Shown here piece by piece: positions 28,007 through 35,414 of a stretch of 64,000 bases of DNA. Positions within the stretch are counted from its first letter, which is position 1, and every line of letters starts with the position of its first letter. The notes beneath the pieces were generated by a model that ran no database searches, was not told the origin of the DNA, and saw only the letters and a program-made list of their open reading frames with translations. The position numbers and the translations under genes are program-made. Source of the DNA: Victivallis sp. Marseille-Q1083 (GTDB taxonomy: Bacteria > Verrucomicrobiota > Lentisphaeria > Victivallales > Victivallaceae); the NCBI RefSeq assembly GCF_903645315.1, contig NZ_CAHJXL010000001.1, forward strand, positions 2,534,501 through 2,598,500. The letters are read 5' to 3'.

Positions 28007-28492
28007 ATGGAAGAAAACAAACCACCGGAAAACGGTTCCGGGCCGCTGAAACTCAGTCAGCGGCTCGGATGTTTGATTTTACTGATTGCGGTGTTGCTGA
28101 TCCTCTTCTGGTTTCTCTGCATGCCGGCGCTTGAACGGCAGGGCGTGGATATGTCCGGGGTGCGCGGTACGGTCGACCATTGGCTGCAGCAGGGAACCGG
28201 TAAGGTCAATGAAGCGATCGGGGCGGCGACCGGGCGGGTGACGGAGCTGACCGGAACGGCGGAGGACGGCGGTGAGCCGGAAGTGACGGCAGCGGAGGAG
28301 GATGGCGTGGTCGACATTTCCGACTCGGTACCGGAAATGCCGCCGGAAGAGAAAATCGCCGAACCGGAGATTACGCCGGAAAATGGTTCGCCGGGCGAGC
28401 CGGACAATGCGGAAAATGAAACGGCCGGCGAGTGGATGGATCCCGATGGCGGCGTGCTGGATTACGGCGCGTATCAGTTGATCGAAGAGTGA
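28007..28492 (+). CDS. Single-pass membrane protein with acidic tail, unknown function
   Basis: 161 residues. A short cytoplasmic N-terminus precedes one membrane helix (CLILLIAVLLILFWFLCMPAL, about 22-42; 21 hydrophobic positions). The outside part starts with an amphipathic region (VRGTVDHWLQQGTGKVNEAI) and ends in an acidic, Pro- and Glu-rich tail. No family is recognised. The 6-base gap to the two-HTH regulator and the similar PE-rich acidic ends suggest the two are made together and may interact. Confidence 0.65.
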   Translation: MEENKPPENGSGPLKLSQRLGCLILLIAVLLILFWFLCMPALERQGVDMSGVRGTVDHWLQQGTGKVNEAIGAATGRVTELTGTAEDGGEPEVTAAEEDGVVDISDSVPEMPPEEKIAEPEITPENGSPGEPDNAENETAGEWMDPDGGVLDYGAYQLIEE

Positions 28493-28525
28493 GGCCACGA
28501 TATTTTTTTGAAGATTTTTTCAATT

Positions 28526-28560
28526 CGGCGATTTGTATTTTACGCCGATATGTTTATATT
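28526..28560 (+). promoter_or_regulatory. trp operon promoter with overlapping inverted repeat
   Basis: TTGTAT (28533-28538) and TATATT (28555-28560) are 16 bases apart, placing the transcript start near 28567, some 14 bases before the first leader ATG. An inverted repeat CGGCG (28526-28530) / CGCCG (28543-28547) brackets the -35 box and could be a repressor operator. Boxes and repeat are seen; their use is inferred. Confidence 0.55.
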
Positions 28561-28580
28561 GAAAACAATCTGAAGAAGAA

Positions 28581-28655
28581 ATGAAAGATTGGAATTGAAT
28601 GAATTCGGTTTCGGTAAAATTTTGGCGCTGGTGGCATCAGGAGGCAATCCGTTGA
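28581..28655 (+). CDS. trpL: trp leader peptide 1 (two adjoining small frames)
   Basis: The main frame, 28599-28655, encodes 18 residues: MNSVSVKFWRWWHQEAIR, with three Trp codons in four positions. Directly before it and in the same frame lies a 5-codon frame MKDWN (28581-28598) whose TGA abuts the next ATG. A peptide rich in Trp codons upstream of trpE and before a terminator is the hallmark of ribosome-mediated attenuation: stalling at Trp codons when charged tRNA-Trp is scarce changes the RNA fold. The bases CAATCCG at 28645-28651, within the last codons, are complementary to CGGATTG in the terminator stem (28693-28699), so they can form the antiterminator. Confidence 0.8.
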
Positions 28656-28691
28656 GGCCGCTGTGAGTTTTTGCCGTTTGGTTGGAGTTTC

Positions 28692-28726
28692 GCGGATTGA
28701 ATGAAGTATTCAATCCGCTTTTTTTT
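28692..28726 (+). terminator. trp attenuator terminator 1
   Basis: GCGGATTGAAT (28692-28702) pairs perfectly with ATTCAATCCGC (28708-28718), 11 bp with a 5-base loop, followed by eight T. It lies 36 bases after leader peptide 1. Its 5' arm can alternatively pair with CAATCCG at 28645-28651. Confidence 0.88.
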
Positions 28727-28754
28727 ATTTTGAAAGATATGGAATATTGAGAAG

Positions 28755-28853
28755 ATGAATTGCAGTTTGAACAACTTTTTTGGATGGTGGCAACGCGTTC
28801 GACATGATTCGCGGCGCTCGGCCGCGTCGCGGCCGCCCGGCGCGACGGACTGA
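28755..28853 (+). CDS. trp leader peptide 2
   Basis: 32 codons, starting MNCSLNNFFGWWQRV, with tandem Trp codons at 28785-28790 and a TGA at 28851-28853. It resembles leader 1: both start ATGAATT and carry TGGTGGCA at the Trp codons, which suggests duplication. TTCGCGGCGCT (28808-28818), just after the Trp codons, can pair with the 5' arm of terminator 2 (10 of 11 positions including one G-U). A strong hairpin (28819-28825 with 28829-28835) follows in the frame. The ribosome site is poor (GAGAAG next to the ATG), so the true start is less sure than the frame. Confidence 0.72.
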   Translation: MNCSLNNFFGWWQRVRHDSRRSAASRPPGATD

Positions 28854-28870
28854 GGATTTCGAAAACGTGC

Positions 28871-28907
28871 AAGCCCCGTGAATCAGCAAGGTTCACGGGG
28901 CTTTTTT
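28871..28907 (+). terminator. trp attenuator terminator 2
   Basis: AAGCCCCGTGAA (28871-28882) pairs perfectly with TTCACGGGGCTT (28892-28903), followed by a run of T to 28907. It stands 41 bases before the trpE start, so it must be read through for the operon to be expressed. Confidence 0.9.
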
Positions 28908-28947
28908 ATGGCAATTGATCAACAGGAAATGAAGGATTGAAAACAAG

Positions 28948-30426
28948 ATGAATACCAAACCGGATTTCAAAGAATTCGAAAAACTTTATCGGCCGCATTG
29001 CATCATCCCGCTGTATCGGGAGTTGCTGGCCGATCTGGAGACGCCGGTGTCGATTCTGAGCAAACTGGCCGGCCGCGATCAAATTTTTCTATTGGAAAGC
29101 GTCGAGGGCGGCGAACGCCACGGCCGTTACTCGTTTATCGCGTTGAATCCCTATGCGACCTTTACGGTCGAAGCGGGCCGGCCGTATTTGACCGACCGCG
29201 CCGGGCGGCGGCCGCTGGCGGGGGCGGCGAATGGTTTTGCGGCGTTGCGGCAGGTGCTCGGCGACGCGGTGATGGTGCGGCAGCCGGGTTTGCCGCCGCT
29301 GGCCGGCGGGGCGATCGGTTGTTTGAATTTCGAAGCGGCCGGCCTGTTTGAAGAGTTGCCGCCGCCCAAAGACCATCCGGAACGCCCGGTGGCGCAATTC
29401 ATGCTGACCGACGAGATGATCACTTTCGACAACATGCGTCACACTTTGCTGTTGTCGGTGGCGTTGCACAGTGACGATTATCCGTCGGCCCGGGCCGCTT
29501 ACGATACCGGTTTGGAACGATTGAAAGCGTTGGCCGGACAACTGGGCGGCGCCGGTCATCCGGCGCCGGCTGTAACCGATATGGTTCAATTTCAAGCCAA
29601 TATGAGCAAGGAGGAATTTTGCCGGATGGTGGAGCGCGGCAAAGCGGAAATTGCCGCCGGCGAGGCGATTCAATTGGTTTTGTCGCAACGTTTCCAGGCG
29701 CCGCTTACCGTCGACCCGGTTTGCCTGTACCGGGCGTTGCGGCTGGTCAATCCGTCGCCGTACATGTATTTCTGCAAGAATTTTGACCGATATCTGATCG
29801 GCTCTTCGCCGGAAACGATGGTGAAACTGCAGCAGCGGACTGCCGGTTTGCGGCCGATTGCCGGTACCCGACGGCGCAGCGGCGACGAAGCGACCGACCG
29901 GCAGTTGGCCGATGAACTGCTGCGCGACGAGAAAGAACGGGCGGAACACCTGATGCTGGTCGACCTGGGCCGCAACGATCTCGGCCGGGTGGCGGCGCCG
30001 GGCAGCGTCCAGGTGCGGGATTTTATGCAGGTGGAACGTTATTCGCATGTCATGCACCTGGTGTCGAATCTGGAAGCGCAGTTGGACGACTCCTTCGACG
30101 CTTTCGATCTGGTCCGGTCGGCGTTTCCGGCCGGAACGCTTTCCGGCGCGCCGAAAATCCGGGCGATGGAGCTGATCCGCGAGTTGGAACCGGAGTCGCG
30201 CGGCGCCTACGGCGGTGCGGTCGGCTACATCAGTTACGACGGCAACCTGGATCTGGCGATCACCATCCGGACGATGCTGATTGAGGACGGGGTGTTGTCG
30301 ATCCAGGCCGGCGCCGGCATCGTCGCCGACTCGGTGCCGGAAACGGAATATCAGGAAACGCTGAACAAAGCGATGGCGATGTTCAAAGCGGTGGAACTGG
30401 CCGCCAACGGCTTGAAATTGAATTGA
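28948..30426 (+). CDS. trpE: Anthranilate synthase component I
   Basis: 492 residues, full length. It converts chorismate and ammonia (from TrpG) to anthranilate, the first step of tryptophan synthesis. The N-terminal part has the LLESVEGGERHGRYSFI region (key part LLES), part of the tryptophan feedback site. The chorismate-binding domain shows IQLVLSQRF, PSPYMYF, IAGTRRRSGDEATD, HLMLVDLGRNDLGRV, FPAGTLSGAPKIRAMELI and GAYGGAVGY. It is the first structural gene of a seven-gene operon, preceded by a tandem attenuator. AAGGA lies 11 bases before the ATG. Confidence 0.97.
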   Translation: MNTKPDFKEFEKLYRPHCIIPLYRELLADLETPVSILSKLAGRDQIFLLESVEGGERHGRYSFIALNPYATFTVEAGRPYLTDRAGRRPLAGAANGFAALRQVLGDAVMVRQPGLPPLAGGAIGCLNFEAAGLFEELPPPKDHPERPVAQFMLTDEMITFDNMRHTLLLSVALHSDDYPSARAAYDTGLERLKALAGQLGGAGHPAPAVTDMVQFQANMSKEEFCRMVERGKAEIAAGEAIQLVLSQRFQAPLTVDPVCLYRALRLVNPSPYMYFCKNFDRYLIGSSPETMVKLQQRTAGLRPIAGTRRRSGDEATDRQLADELLRDEKERAEHLMLVDLGRNDLGRVAAPGSVQVRDFMQVERYSHVMHLVSNLEAQLDDSFDAFDLVRSAFPAGTLSGAPKIRAMELIRELEPESRGAYGGAVGYISYDGNLDLAITIRTMLIEDGVLSIQAGAGIVADSVPETEYQETLNKAMAMFKAVELAANGLKLN

Positions 30427-30446
30427 AACATTTGCGAGGTTGAAAA

Positions 30447-31034
30447 ATGGTGCTGCTGATCGATAATTTTGACTCTTTTACTTACAATCTGGCCCAATAT
30501 CTCTATCAACTGGACGTCGAGCTGCTGGTGCGGCGCAACAATGCGATCACGCTGGAGGAAATCGCCGCGTTGGAGAATCTCGACGCGATCGTTCTGTCGC
30601 CGGGCCCCGGCCGTCCGGAGAATGCCGGCATCATGGTGCCGCTGATCCGGCATTTTGCCGGCCGTGTGCCGATGCTCGGCGTCTGCCTCGGGCATCAGGC
30701 GATCGGCTGTGCGTTCGGCGGCGAGGTCGTCCGGGCCAGACGGTTGATGCACGGCAAGCTCTCCAGTATTTCGCACGACGGCCAAGGGCTGTTCGCCGGT
30801 TTGAAGCAAAATTTTGCGGCGGTCCGTTACCACTCGCTGGCGCTGAATGAAACGACCCTGCCTCCGGAATTGATGGTTACCGCCCGCAGCGAGGACGGTG
30901 AAGTGATGGGCGTCCGCCACCGCGAATTCGTGCTGGAAGGCATTCAGTACCATCCGGAGTCGATCCTGAGCGCCAACGGCAAACGGCAACTGGCCAATTT
31001 CCTGGCGCTGGCAGCGGAACGGAAAGGAGTTTGA
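30447..31034 (+). CDS. trpG: Anthranilate synthase component II (glutamine amidotransferase)
   Basis: 195 residues. Class I glutamine amidotransferase: IDNFDSFTYNLAQYL at the start, the oxyanion strand LSPGPGRPENAG, the nucleophile Cys in MLGVCLGHQAIG (about residue 79), and His and Glu of the triad in GIQYHPESILS (about 170). It hydrolyses glutamine and feeds ammonia to TrpE. It lacks any fused TrpD domain. It starts 20 bases after trpE and ends 4 bases before trpD. Confidence 0.95.
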   Translation: MVLLIDNFDSFTYNLAQYLYQLDVELLVRRNNAITLEEIAALENLDAIVLSPGPGRPENAGIMVPLIRHFAGRVPMLGVCLGHQAIGCAFGGEVVRARRLMHGKLSSISHDGQGLFAGLKQNFAAVRYHSLALNETTLPPELMVTARSEDGEVMGVRHREFVLEGIQYHPESILSANGKRQLANFLALAAERKGV

Positions 31035-31038
31035 AGCG

Positions 31039-32052
31039 ATGCTGGAACAATATTTGAACCGGGTGGTCGACGGACAGTCGTTGACGGCGGCGGAAGCCGC
31101 GGCGGTGATTGACGGCATGATGGACGGCAAGTTGACGCCGGCGCAAAGCGGCGCTTTGCTGGCCGCGCTGAAAATCAAAGGGGAAAGCTGCGAGGAGATC
31201 GTCGGCGGCGCCCGGGCGATGCGGCGCCATGCCCGGTTCATCGATTCCGGCAATCTGCCGGTCATCGACACCTGCGGGACCGGCGGCGACCACCTGAATA
31301 CCTTCAATATTTCGACGACGGTGAGCTTCGTTGCCGCCGCCGCCGGCGTGCCGGTCGCCAAGCACGGCAACCGCAGCGCTTCGAGCTTATGCGGTTCGGC
31401 CGATGTGCTGGCTGAGCTCGGTTTCAACCTGGATGCTGATCCGCTGCGGATGGAGGAGTGTCTGCTCGAACACGGCATCGGCTTTTTCTTTGCGCCGAAG
31501 GTTCATCCGGCGATGCGCCAGGTGGCGGCGGTCCGCCGGGAGTTGAAATTCCGGACTTTGTTCAATCTGCTGGGGCCATTGTGCAATCCGGCCGGGGCTC
31601 GCGGCCAGTTGCTCGGCGTTTTCAAGCCGGAATTGACGGAGCTTTTCGCCAACGCGCTGCGTGAGCTGGGATCCTCCCGGGTGATGGTGGTGCACGGCCA
31701 CGACGGCCTGGATGAGATCAGTTGCGATGTGCCGACCCGGATTTCCGAATTGCGCGACGGAGCGGTTCGTACCTACGATCTGTATCCGGAACTGATTCTG
31801 GGGGAGTCCTATCCGCTGAGCAGCGTCAAAGGTGGCGACGCCAAAGTCAATGCGGCGATCCTGACCGCGGTGCTGGCGGGCCGCGGGCAGGGGGGGCCGC
31901 GGGCGATCACGCTGTTGAATGCGGCGGCGGCGATCGTCGTCGGCGGCCGGGCCGAAACTTTGCAGGCTGGAATGCAGTTGGCGGCCGAAGCGGTGGATTC
32001 CGGCGCCGCGTTGGAAAAGCTGGAACGATTGCTGGAAGCGAGCCGGGGATGA
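31039..32052 (+). CDS. trpD: Anthranilate phosphoribosyltransferase
   Basis: 337 residues. It joins anthranilate to phosphoribosyl pyrophosphate. Visible family motifs are DTCGTGGDHLNTFNIST (PRPP binding; CGTGGD, about residues 76-81), AKHGNRSASSLCGSADVLAELG, and the catalytic-region segments FFFAPKVHPAMR and FNLLGPLCNPAG, then VHGHDGLDE. The stop overlaps the trpC start as ATGA, so translation is coupled. Confidence 0.96.
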   Translation: MLEQYLNRVVDGQSLTAAEAAAVIDGMMDGKLTPAQSGALLAALKIKGESCEEIVGGARAMRRHARFIDSGNLPVIDTCGTGGDHLNTFNISTTVSFVAAAAGVPVAKHGNRSASSLCGSADVLAELGFNLDADPLRMEECLLEHGIGFFFAPKVHPAMRQVAAVRRELKFRTLFNLLGPLCNPAGARGQLLGVFKPELTELFANALRELGSSRVMVVHGHDGLDEISCDVPTRISELRDGAVRTYDLYPELILGESYPLSSVKGGDAKVNAAILTAVLAGRGQGGPRAITLLNAAAAIVVGGRAETLQAGMQLAAEAVDSGAALEKLERLLEASRG

Positions 32053-32837
32053 AAAGTTTGATGGATTATTTGAATATGATCGTCGATCACAATCAGTTGA
32101 TCGTCCGTAACGACCGGCGTTCCAAGCCGTTGAGCCATTTGAAACGAACGATTGCCGGATTGCCGCCGCCGCGGGATTTTCTGGCACCGTTCCGGGACTG
32201 TCGCCGGGTACGAGTCATCGCCGAGCTGAAAAAGGCGTCGCCATCCAAAGGATTGATCCGCGACGATTTTCCGGTGGAGGCGTTGGCCGGGGCATTGGCG
32301 GAGGCGGGCGCCGCCGCTTTGTCGGTGCTGACCGAACCGTATTATTTCCGCGGTTCGACCGAAAATTTGCAATTGGCGGCCCGGACGGTCGATATCCCGC
32401 TGCTGCGCAAGGATTTCATTTTCGATCCTTACCAGATTTATCAGGCGCGGGCGCTGGGGGCCGACGCGGTGCTGCTGATTGCGGCGATCCTCAACCCGGC
32501 CCGTTTCGATTTCCTGCTGAAATTGACCCACGAACTGGGGATGACCGCCCTGTGCGAAATCCATACCGAGAGTGAATTGGAAACCGTGTTGAACAGCGGA
32601 GCCGAATTGATCGGCATCAATTGCCGCAATTTGCGCAGTTTCGTCACTGATTTGGAAATCGTCCGGCATCTGCTGGATTTGATTCCGGACGACAAACTGG
32701 TCATCGCCGAAAGCGGCATCCACAACCGCCGCGATCTCAATCGGCTGCGCGACGCCGGCGCCGACGGTTTTCTGATCGGCGAAGCGTTGATGCGGGCGGA
32801 GAAGCCGGGTGAAAAATTGCGGGAATTCATCCGATGA
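32049..32837 (+). CDS. trpC: Indole-3-glycerol-phosphate synthase
   Basis: 262 residues, a TIM barrel that closes the indole ring from CdRP. Motifs: VIAELKKASPSKGLI with the substrate-binding Lys (about 58-72), ALSVLTEPYYFRGS, LLRKDFIFDPYQIYQAR with the catalytic Lys, GINCRNLRSF, and VIAESGIHNRRDL. The frame is open upstream into trpD, but the ATG at 32049 overlapping the trpD stop fits both family length and the coupling seen throughout the operon. Confidence 0.96.
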   Translation: MKSLMDYLNMIVDHNQLIVRNDRRSKPLSHLKRTIAGLPPPRDFLAPFRDCRRVRVIAELKKASPSKGLIRDDFPVEALAGALAEAGAAALSVLTEPYYFRGSTENLQLAARTVDIPLLRKDFIFDPYQIYQARALGADAVLLIAAILNPARFDFLLKLTHELGMTALCEIHTESELETVLNSGAELIGINCRNLRSFVTDLEIVRHLLDLIPDDKLVIAESGIHNRRDLNRLRDAGADGFLIGEALMRAEKPGEKLREFIR

Positions 32838-33448
32838 AGAAACTGGAAGTCAAAATTTGCGGCCTGACGCGCCGGGAAGATGCGCTGAAAGCTCTGGCGT
32901 GCGGCGCCGATTATCTGGGTTTTGTACTGCATCCGGCTTCGCCGCGTTATATTGCGCCGGACGCATTGCGCCGGCTGGTCGCCGGCCTGCCGCCGGAAAC
33001 CCGTACCGTCGGGGTTTTCGTTGACCGGCCGGCGGCGGAAATGCTGGAAATCATGGCGTTCTGTCATTTGAAAATCGTTCAACTGCATGGTCGGGAGACG
33101 GTCGAAGTGGCCGGGCAATTGGCCGGCTATCCGGTCTGGAAAGCGGTTCATTTGGGCGCGGCCGAAGATTTGGCGGCGGCCGCCGCCTTTCCGGCCGAGC
33201 GCCTGGTGGCCGACAGCCGCCGGGGCGGTTCCGGCGAACTTTGCGACTGGACTTTGGCGGCGCAGTTGGCGCGACGGCGGCCGGTCATGCTGGCCGGCGG
33301 GTTGACCCCCGTGAATATCCGGTCGGCCGCGGCGGCGGTGCAGCCGGCCGGCGTCGACCTGGCCGGCGGGGTGGAAGCGGCTCCCGGCGTCAAATCCGCT
33401 TATTTGATCGAACAATTTTTTCAACGGTTGAAAGGAATAGAACGATGA
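32834..33448 (+). CDS. trpF: Phosphoribosylanthranilate isomerase
   Basis: 204 residues, a TIM barrel acting between TrpD and Trp[16 protein letters not shown] carries the catalytic Cys at residue 8, and [23 protein letters not shown] and the phosphate-binding [10 protein letters not shown] follow; the catalytic Asp-type strand reads [16 protein letters not shown] where families usually have LLD. It is a separate gene, not fused to trpC. ATGA overlaps at both ends. Confidence 0.95.
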
Positions 33449-34644
33449 AACCGATTCCCACTTATTTCGGCAATTACGGCGGCCAGTTTGTCGCTGAAAC
33501 CCTGATGGCGGCGCTTGAAGCGTTGCGGGAAGAATATGACGCCTGCCGCCGCGATCCGGCTTTTCAGGCGGAATTGCAGGCGCTGCAGCATGATTACATC
33601 GGCCGGGAGTCGCCGCTTTACTATGCGGCGAATCTGAGCAATGCGCTCGGCGGCGCCCGGATTTTCCTGAAACGGGAAGACCTCAACCATACCGGCGCCC
33701 ACAAGATCAACAACACCGTCGGGCAGGCGCTGATCGCCAAGCGGATGGGAAAAAAGCGGCTGATCGCCGAAACCGGCGCCGGCATGCACGGCGTGGCGAC
33801 CGCGACGGTGGCGGCGTTGTTCAATTTCGATTGCGAAGTGTTCATGGGGGCGGTCGATGTCGCCCGGCAGCAGCCGAACGTCGAACGGATGCGGGCGCTC
33901 GGGGCCGAAGTGACCGCAGTGTCCAGCGGTTCGGCCACGCTGAAGGACGCGATGAATGAGGCGATCCGCAACTGGGTAGCCACTGTCGACGATACCTTTT
34001 ACGTCATCGGTACGGTGGCCGGACCGGCGCCGTATCCGGCGATGGTGCGCGACTTCCAGTCGGTGATCGGCACCGAGACGCGCCGGCAGTTTCTGGAACG
34101 CACCGGCCGGTTGCCGGATCAGGTGATCGCCTGCGTTGGCGGCGGCAGCAATGCGATGGGAATGTTCAGCGGTTTCCTGGAAGATTCCGGCGTGGAATTG
34201 ATCGGCGTCGAGGCCGGCGGCCGGGGGTTGGCAACCGGTCGTCATGCCGCCAGCATCTGCGGCGGCCGGGTCGGGGTGCTGCACGGCTGCAAGACCTATC
34301 TGCTGCAGACCGACGACGGACAGATCGTCGAAACCACTTCGGTGTCGGCCGGGCTGGACTATCCCGGCGTCGGCCCGGAACATGCGATGCTGCACGACTG
34401 CGGCAGGGTTAATTACGTGGCGGTCAACGATGATGAGGCGGTCGCCGCCTTCGACCTGCTGTCGCGCCGGGAAGGCATCATTCCGGCTTTGGAATCCAGC
34501 CATGCGCTGGCCGAAGCGATCAAGCGGGCGCCGACGCTGCCGCCGGAACAGAATATCGTCGTCTGTCTTTCCGGCCGCGGCGACAAGGACATGGACAATC
34601 TCAAACAATATCACGTTTCACGAAAAGAGGAGTTTTACCGATGA
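33445..34644 (+). CDS. trpB: Tryptophan synthase beta chain
   Basis: 399 residues, TrpB1 type. It condenses indole with serine using [17 protein letters not shown] opens the protein; the PLP lysine is in [15 protein letters not shown]; the catalytic Glu in [13 protein letters not shown]; the phosphate clamp in [12 protein letters not shown]; and [14 protein letters not shown] is conserved. The ATG at 33445 overlaps the trpF stop; an upstream open frame is a shadow of trpF. Confidence 0.97.
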
Positions 34645-35414
34645 ACCGCATTGCCGCTGTTTTCGAACATTGCCGTACCGCCGAGCGTGCCGCTTTGACG
34701 CTGTATGCGACGGTAGGTTATCCGACGCTGGCCGACAGCATTGAAGCTTTGAAGGCGATGATCGCCGCCGGCGCCGATATGATTGAACTGGGGGTGCCAT
34801 TTTCCGATCCGATGGCCGATGGGCCGGTCATCCAGGCTGCCGGGCAGGAAGCGCTGCGGCAGGGAGTCACTTTGGGCGATATCCTGTCGGTTGCTGTCGC
34901 CATCCGGAAAGAATCGTCAGTGCCGCTGATACTTTTCTCTTATTACAATGTCCTGCTGCGTTACGGCCTGGAACAACTGGCGCGGGATGCCGCCGCCGCC
35001 GGCATCGACGGGATATTGGTCGTTGATTTGCCGCTGGAAGAACAGAAAGAGCTGGTGCAGGCGCTGGAACCGGCCGGCCTGGCGTTGATTCAATTGATCG
35101 CGCCAACCACGCCGCCGGACCGGGCGGAACGGATTCTGCGGCACGCTTCCGGTTTCGTCTATTACATCACCGTCAAAGGTGTTACCGGCGAACAGAGCGT
35201 ATTTCCGGCCGATCTGGCCGGGCAGCTGCAGCGCCTGCGCCGGCAGTCGCCGGTCCCGGTCGTGGCCGGATTCGGCATTGCCACGCCGGAACAGGCGAAG
35301 ATGATTGCCGGCCACGCCGACGGGATTGTCATCGGCAGCGCGGTGGTGCGCCGCCAGAAGGAGCCGGAAAAGTTGCGGGAGTTCGTCGCTTCGATGGCGT
35401 CTGCCTTGCGATGA
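34641..35414 (+). CDS. trpA: Tryptophan synthase alpha chain
   Basis: 257 residues, a TIM barrel that splits indole-3-glycerol phosphate and passes indole to TrpB. Catalytic Glu in [19 protein letters not shown] ([16 protein letters not shown], about 47-63), catalytic Asp in [11 protein letters not shown], and phosphate-binding elements in [10 protein letters not shown] and [10 protein letters not shown] and GIVIGSAVV. Last gene of the operon; ATGA overlap with trpB. A hairpin follows about 105 bases later. Confidence 0.96.

Follow-up and report, generated by a model that had tools for sequence, protein, structure and literature searches.

Two tryptophan leader units in series upstream of trpEGDCFBA in Victivallis sp. 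Marseille-Q1083, a probable pair of attenuators

Analysis of a 64,000-nucleotide stretch of the Victivallis sp. Marseille-Q1083 genome (the window) confirmed that two complete leader units lie upstream of the trpEGDCFBA operon. Attenuation of trp operons through a leader peptide is classical, and we consider it probable that this trpE leader is a series of two transcription attenuators that are ribosome-mediated and respond to the same signal, charged tRNA-Trp. The units were read directly in the intergenic stretch at 28493-28947, between an ORF of 161 aa with no Pfam match and trpE. Each is composed of a Trp-rich short ORF, an antiterminator strand and a perfect hairpin with a U-tract, in that order, and on rereading the sequence the coordinates claimed for both in the original prediction were borne out. 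Pfam matches placed trpE, G, D, C, F, B and A in this order after the leader region. The features are as follows.

28533..28560, plus strand: candidate promoter, TTGTAT, 16 bases, TATATT, picked by eye
28599-28655, plus strand: leader peptide 1, MNSVSVKFWRWWHQEAIR, with Trp codons at 28623-28625 and 28629-28634
28645-28651, plus strand: antiterminator strand 1, CAATCCG, at the end of leader 1
28692..28726, plus strand: terminator 1, a 12-pair stem (28692-28718) and T8
28755-28853, plus strand: leader peptide 2, MNCSLNNFFGWWQRVRHDSRRSAASRPPGATD, with WW codons at 28785-28790
28805-28818, plus strand: antiterminator strand 2, TGATTCGCGG, a mismatch and GCT, inside leader 2
28819..28835, plus strand: GC-rich hairpin within leader 2
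28871..28907, plus strand: terminator 2, a 14-pair stem (28871-28903) and U-tract
28948..30426, plus strand: trpE, first gene of trpEGDCFBA (28948-35414)

Both leaders carry clustered codons for the end product of the operon downstream, three Trp codons in 18 in leader 1 and the WW pair in leader 2. The pairing proposed between CAATCCG and the 5' arm of terminator 1 held when compared with 500 shuffles (best duplex -12.2 versus -8.1, sd 1.8, p 0.030). Terminator 1 with its tail folded at -16.3 kcal/mol versus -3.5 for shuffles (z -6.8); it was correctly located and has the eight T originally described, with a stem of 12 pairs and not 11. It had no copy elsewhere in the genome. The second strand also pairs with its terminator arm as had been proposed (-19.9 versus -14.1 in shuffles, sd 2.3, p 0.018), and the duplex, 13 pairs around one mismatch, extends beyond the 28808-28818 first given for it, to 28805-28818. 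In the MFE structures, the unit 2 antiterminator fold encloses the GC-rich hairpin. We asked whether the GC-rich part of leader 2 is a dispersed repeat and rejected this, the genome yielding eight weak partial matches (best E 0.008). Terminator 2 folded at -24.6 versus -7.7 for shuffles (z -7.8) and ends 44 bases before trpE. Thus, as judged from sequence only, each unit has an intrinsic terminator ahead of the first gene.

The improbability of these parts was established with 2000 dinucleotide shuffles of 28493-28947. A leader with its terminator occurred in none of the shuffles, versus two in the real stretch; a strong terminator occurred in 19 and two terminators in none. ORFs with a Trp pair, considered without regard to a terminator, were not rare (at least one in 344 of the 2000 shuffles, at least two in 40), and we therefore placed weight on the combination of leader and terminator. 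When both strands of the window were scanned under criteria similar to those of the shuffle test, with at least five GC pairs, four strong terminators were found, of which two were terminators 1 and 2. It is conceivable that these are ordinary terminators beside Trp ORFs that arose by chance, and the frequency of such bare ORFs in the shuffles would allow it. However, with no shuffle combining the two elements and the layout conserved across the class (see below), we regard this explanation as extremely improbable.

The candidate promoter at 28533..28560 has a good -10 and a weak -35 and was not among the sites returned by a consensus promoter scan; we infer that transcription would start from it or elsewhere upstream of leader 1. 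Between this candidate and leader 1 we observed a mini-ORF, MKDWN, with one Trp codon (28581..28598, plus strand), which is preceded by GAAGAAGAA and ends directly at the leader 1 start codon (TGAATG). This ORF could provide for coupling or re-initiation of leader 1 translation. At the gathering score, Rfam release 15 had no matches in the window. A permissive search of 28480-28960 gave nine sub-threshold names, no amino-acid operon leader among them; the best, BcKCsr2 (23.5 bits versus a cut-off of 40, E 0.003), was dismissed as chance or composition.

To place the units in a wider context, we collected TrpE matches from 118 of the 197 genomes of the class (E up to 1e-120) and 77 of the 137 of the order (1e-100). 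Their upstream stretches represented 113 distinct loci (L048 being the same place as L003), and 109 entered the census once four with fewer than 250 bases upstream (L030, L047, L050 and L082) had been left out. Ten distant loci from a scan of genome contigs, by title nine actinobacterial and one from an uncultured bacterium, were excluded from the comparisons, and the window's genus was represented by one genome only. The script identified at least one unit of Trp leader and terminator in 76 of the 109 upstream regions, the 33 script-negative loci including the two-leader L018, the one-Trp leader of L021 and Trp leaders in at least L092, L105 and L112. Among 545 shuffled upstreams, one unit occurred in two and two units in none. 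No unit was present in any of the 12 loci examined from families f3-f6 (L053, L072-L081 and L083), and the script found no Trp leader unit in L119-L124.

Across these relatives, the antiterminator strands were complementary to their own terminator arms, and specifically so. Own strand-arm duplexes averaged -13.96 kcal/mol versus -11.04 when permuted, none of 2000 permutations being as low; the set comprised 67 units from 31 genera with one drawn per genus tag (32 tags because g79 was split in two). Alignment of the 56 units with a CCG/CGG anchor showed a common CCG:CGG core flanked by C-G, T-A, T-G and A-T exchanges, and in two g11 species (L068_1 and L069_1) one unit 1 antiterminator pair changed between T-A and C-G on both sides, with an adjacent pair lost. 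Some single units gave no signal in duplex energy (L091 unit 2, p 0.91; the four units of L085 and L086, p 0.23-0.40). In the window, 48 of 65 arms from other genera fitted the unit 1 strand as well as or better than its own arm did, because the CCG:CGG core is common to them; for the unit 2 strand only 13 of 65 did so. Absence of Trp codons and complementary arms in relatives had been named as grounds for abandoning the original prediction, and both are conserved in many of them.

The two-leader layout itself was found at ten loci in four families and eight genera, the window's genus included (the window; G010, G026; G033; G052; G096; G080; G184, G187; G163). Four were called by script (L001, L051, L068 and L069) and six were read by eye (L004, L018, L046, L085, L086 and L091) because their hairpins or starts fell below the script cut-offs. 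All 20 units have two to four clustered Trp codons, the last of which lies 47-96 bases before the hairpin. With one locus for each of the eight genera, 140 of 40320 permutations were as low as the own-arm fit of the first units and 4 of 40320 as low as that of the second units; together with the p of 0.018 in the window, the latter indicates that the unit 2 strand is specific to its own terminator. In G033 the two units share 86% identity over 177 bases, and in G184 87% over 162; these are therefore recent tandem duplications. Each of the two genomes examined in the neighbouring genus g74 has a single unit. On a TrpE tree with 66 rows, the two-leader label had five changes, four of them forced by well-supported branches, in a count that omits two unlabelled rows and the mislabelled G083, does not distinguish gains from losses and includes a long-branched row for the window. 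The terminator 2 arms CCGTGAATC and GGTTCACGG are common to the window and G080, which may reflect common descent. G052 (f1) groups with G096 (f8) and G050 has two trpE places, which points to possible transfer or draft-genome contamination.

The spacing of the units bears on whether they act in series. An additional transcription start between the terminators would put the units on different promoters, and by eye there is an AATATT hexamer in AT-rich surroundings at 28743-28748. Against this, the U-tract of terminator 1 is 28 bases from the leader 2 ATG, so that a -35 element would land in the U-tract itself, and the promoter scan gave no site in that gap. In addition, terminator 1 lies 57-88 bases from the last Trp codon of leader 2 in eight of the ten two-leader loci (154 in L085 and L086). 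We consider such a start very unlikely and a single serial leader the better reading.

A possible second form of double gating was noted in relatives with one leader. The script found a single Trp leader followed by at least two terminators at 27 of the 109 loci (e.g., L088, L095 and L020). In 16 loci analyzed (a seventeenth, L118, was left out for lack of a defined second arm), the strand after the Trp codons contains two adjoining or overlapping segments, of which one, CCGCC or CCGTC, matches terminator 1 and the other terminator 2. The matches exceeded those of shuffles (Fisher p 5e-6 and 4e-5, a calculation that treats related genera as independent), and own pairs exceeded crossed pairs across the 16 loci (Wilcoxon 0.0055 and 0.0021); individually, 5 of 16 and 4 of 16 were below p 0.05. 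These matches suggest that one stalled ribosome would open two gates. Double gating of the trp operon may thus be recurrent across the class and reached by two routes, tandem whole units or one leader with a bipartite post-Trp strand, a generalization to which we give slightly less than even weight.

Many of these relatives with one leader and two terminators also have, by eye, a promoter of the TTGACA-17-TATATT type with its end about 10 bases upstream of the leader ATG (CATTATG or CATCATG; e.g., L003, L010, L020, L025, L042-L045 and L056). Their leader mRNA would therefore be nearly leaderless, like that of Sinorhizobium meliloti trpL, reported in part of PMC7298713 to have its 5' end at its own ATG. 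Leader 1 of the window is unlike these relatives and trpL, and trpL as described there has one attenuator.

To model the switch, we folded transcripts that ended in the terminator loop with the ribosome footprint masked, and read out pairing of the terminator arm. For unit 1 without a ribosome, the last Trp codons formed a separate hairpin in the MFE structure and the arm of the terminator was largely unpaired, with an ensemble pairing of 0.51. With a ribosome stalled at each of the three Trp codons the arm was paired at 0.77, 0.76 and 0.73, the antiterminator being the MFE structure in both stalled states displayed; once the ribosome was placed at the stop codon, arm pairing was 0.39. The unit 1 antiterminator is thus predicted to be present on stalling and lost at the stop codon, a drop of 0.34 that 7 of 40 shuffles matched. 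The unit 2 antiterminator was the MFE structure without a ribosome (0.72), with a stalled ribosome (0.79 and 0.84) and at the stop codon (0.83), where it persists because the ORF continues for about 33 bases beyond the strand. Its arm pairing fell to about 0.5 only during ribosome passage over approximately 28797-28835, and the stall-to-stop drop was 0.01, which 26 of 40 shuffles equalled.

The same procedure was applied to the 20 units of the ten two-leader loci, with the stretch from Trp codon to terminator shuffled 40 times for each and the stall set at the last Trp codon. As a group, the first units had a drop of 0.25 versus 0.02 in shuffles (p 0.042). In L004, unit 1 had almost no arm pairing in any scored state. 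For the second units, no stop-codon release was predicted (mean drop -0.04 versus 0.01, p 0.96). Static folding therefore supports a textbook switch for the first units taken together but not for the second units, in which termination would have to be kinetic, with the ribosome close behind the polymerase, or be unregulated. As modelled, then, unit 2 departs from the textbook attenuator in that its ORF overruns the strand and no stop-codon release is predicted; serial Trp attenuators remain the best reading, and in that part the original prediction stands.

These folds are also what would be expected if only unit 1 sensed Trp, with terminator 2 acting constitutively as a backstop of partial efficiency and leader 2 being a decaying copy or a ribosome loader, and the existence of single leaders with at least two terminators among the relatives points the same way. 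Nevertheless, leader 2 has kept its WW, its strand pairs with the terminator 2 arm beyond chance, the second units of eight genera fit their own arms, and Trp codons are clustered in both leaders at all ten two-leader loci. On balance, we believe that a second gate without Trp sensing is unlikely.

We infer the following mechanism for two serial Trp attenuators, in which promoter use, translation and its stalling, termination, and a kinetic block in unit 2 are all conditional. With plentiful Trp, a ribosome would traverse leader 1 and cover CAATCCG, and terminator 1 would form. On stalling at the Trp codons, CAATCCG would sequester the 5' arm of terminator 1 by pairing, and the polymerase would continue to leader 2, where a stall at WW would keep 28805-28818 available to do the same with the 5' arm of terminator 2. 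Termination in unit 2 would require a ribosome still moving over 28805-28818 while the polymerase makes the hairpin. The polymerase would reach trpE only with both gates open, and readthrough probabilities would therefore multiply and logarithmic gains add, giving multiplied repression and a steeper response to Trp.

The enteric (E. coli) trp attenuator, as outlined in parts of PMC3641672, has clustered Trp codons in a short leader and an antiterminator that competes with an intrinsic terminator before trpE; it is one unit, whereas the window has two with the same three elements. The same source describes tandem leader-ORF attenuators on the Salmonella mgtCBR operon, called by its authors a singular example. 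As in the window, two short leader ORFs lie in one leader mRNA of one operon, but they respond to two signals, ATP and proline, and their stem-loops are unlike intrinsic terminators, whereas the window would have one signal and two intrinsic terminators. The original remark that no description of serial ribosome-dependent attenuators was known is corrected by mgtCBR. For one amino acid, serial complete attenuators were absent from the literature matches listed, from a search with most subscription journals outside it, and those matches held nothing in point on attenuation in Lentisphaerae and related groups. What may be new here is therefore the probable serial gating for one amino acid, with intrinsic terminators.

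Other partial parallels were found. Actinobacterial trp genes are preceded by attenuators with a double or triple UGG and a terminator, like each unit of the window; these are single, and the word tandem is absent from the source (PMC1262725, seen as excerpts). The rimP leader, like that of the window, has two tandem terminators, and a potential antiterminator accompanies them; it belongs to another gene, and the passage concerned names no amino-acid leader peptide (PMC2965389). Two pT181 attenuators placed artificially in series, the arrangement proposed for the window, are said in an excerpt of PMC3753616 to improve dynamic range. In attenuation theory, as excerpted from PMC1183508, sensitivity is the logarithmic gain of the leader readthrough probability, and two gates on one signal would by our reasoning add gains and multiply dynamic ranges. 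Serial gates could thus give a tighter, sharper off-switch, and the related lineages, some with a single unit, some with two and some pairing one leader with two terminators, constitute a natural experiment on tuning regulatory steepness.

Two minor observations were made among the relatives. The leaders of g8 and g13 (L006, L011, L012, L015, L017, L018 and L019) apparently start at TTG. In g4, the long spacer between terminator and trpE contains tandem GGAGTCA or GGAGTTA repeats, located relative to trpE at about -290 to -207 in L014 and about -400 to -357 in L016.
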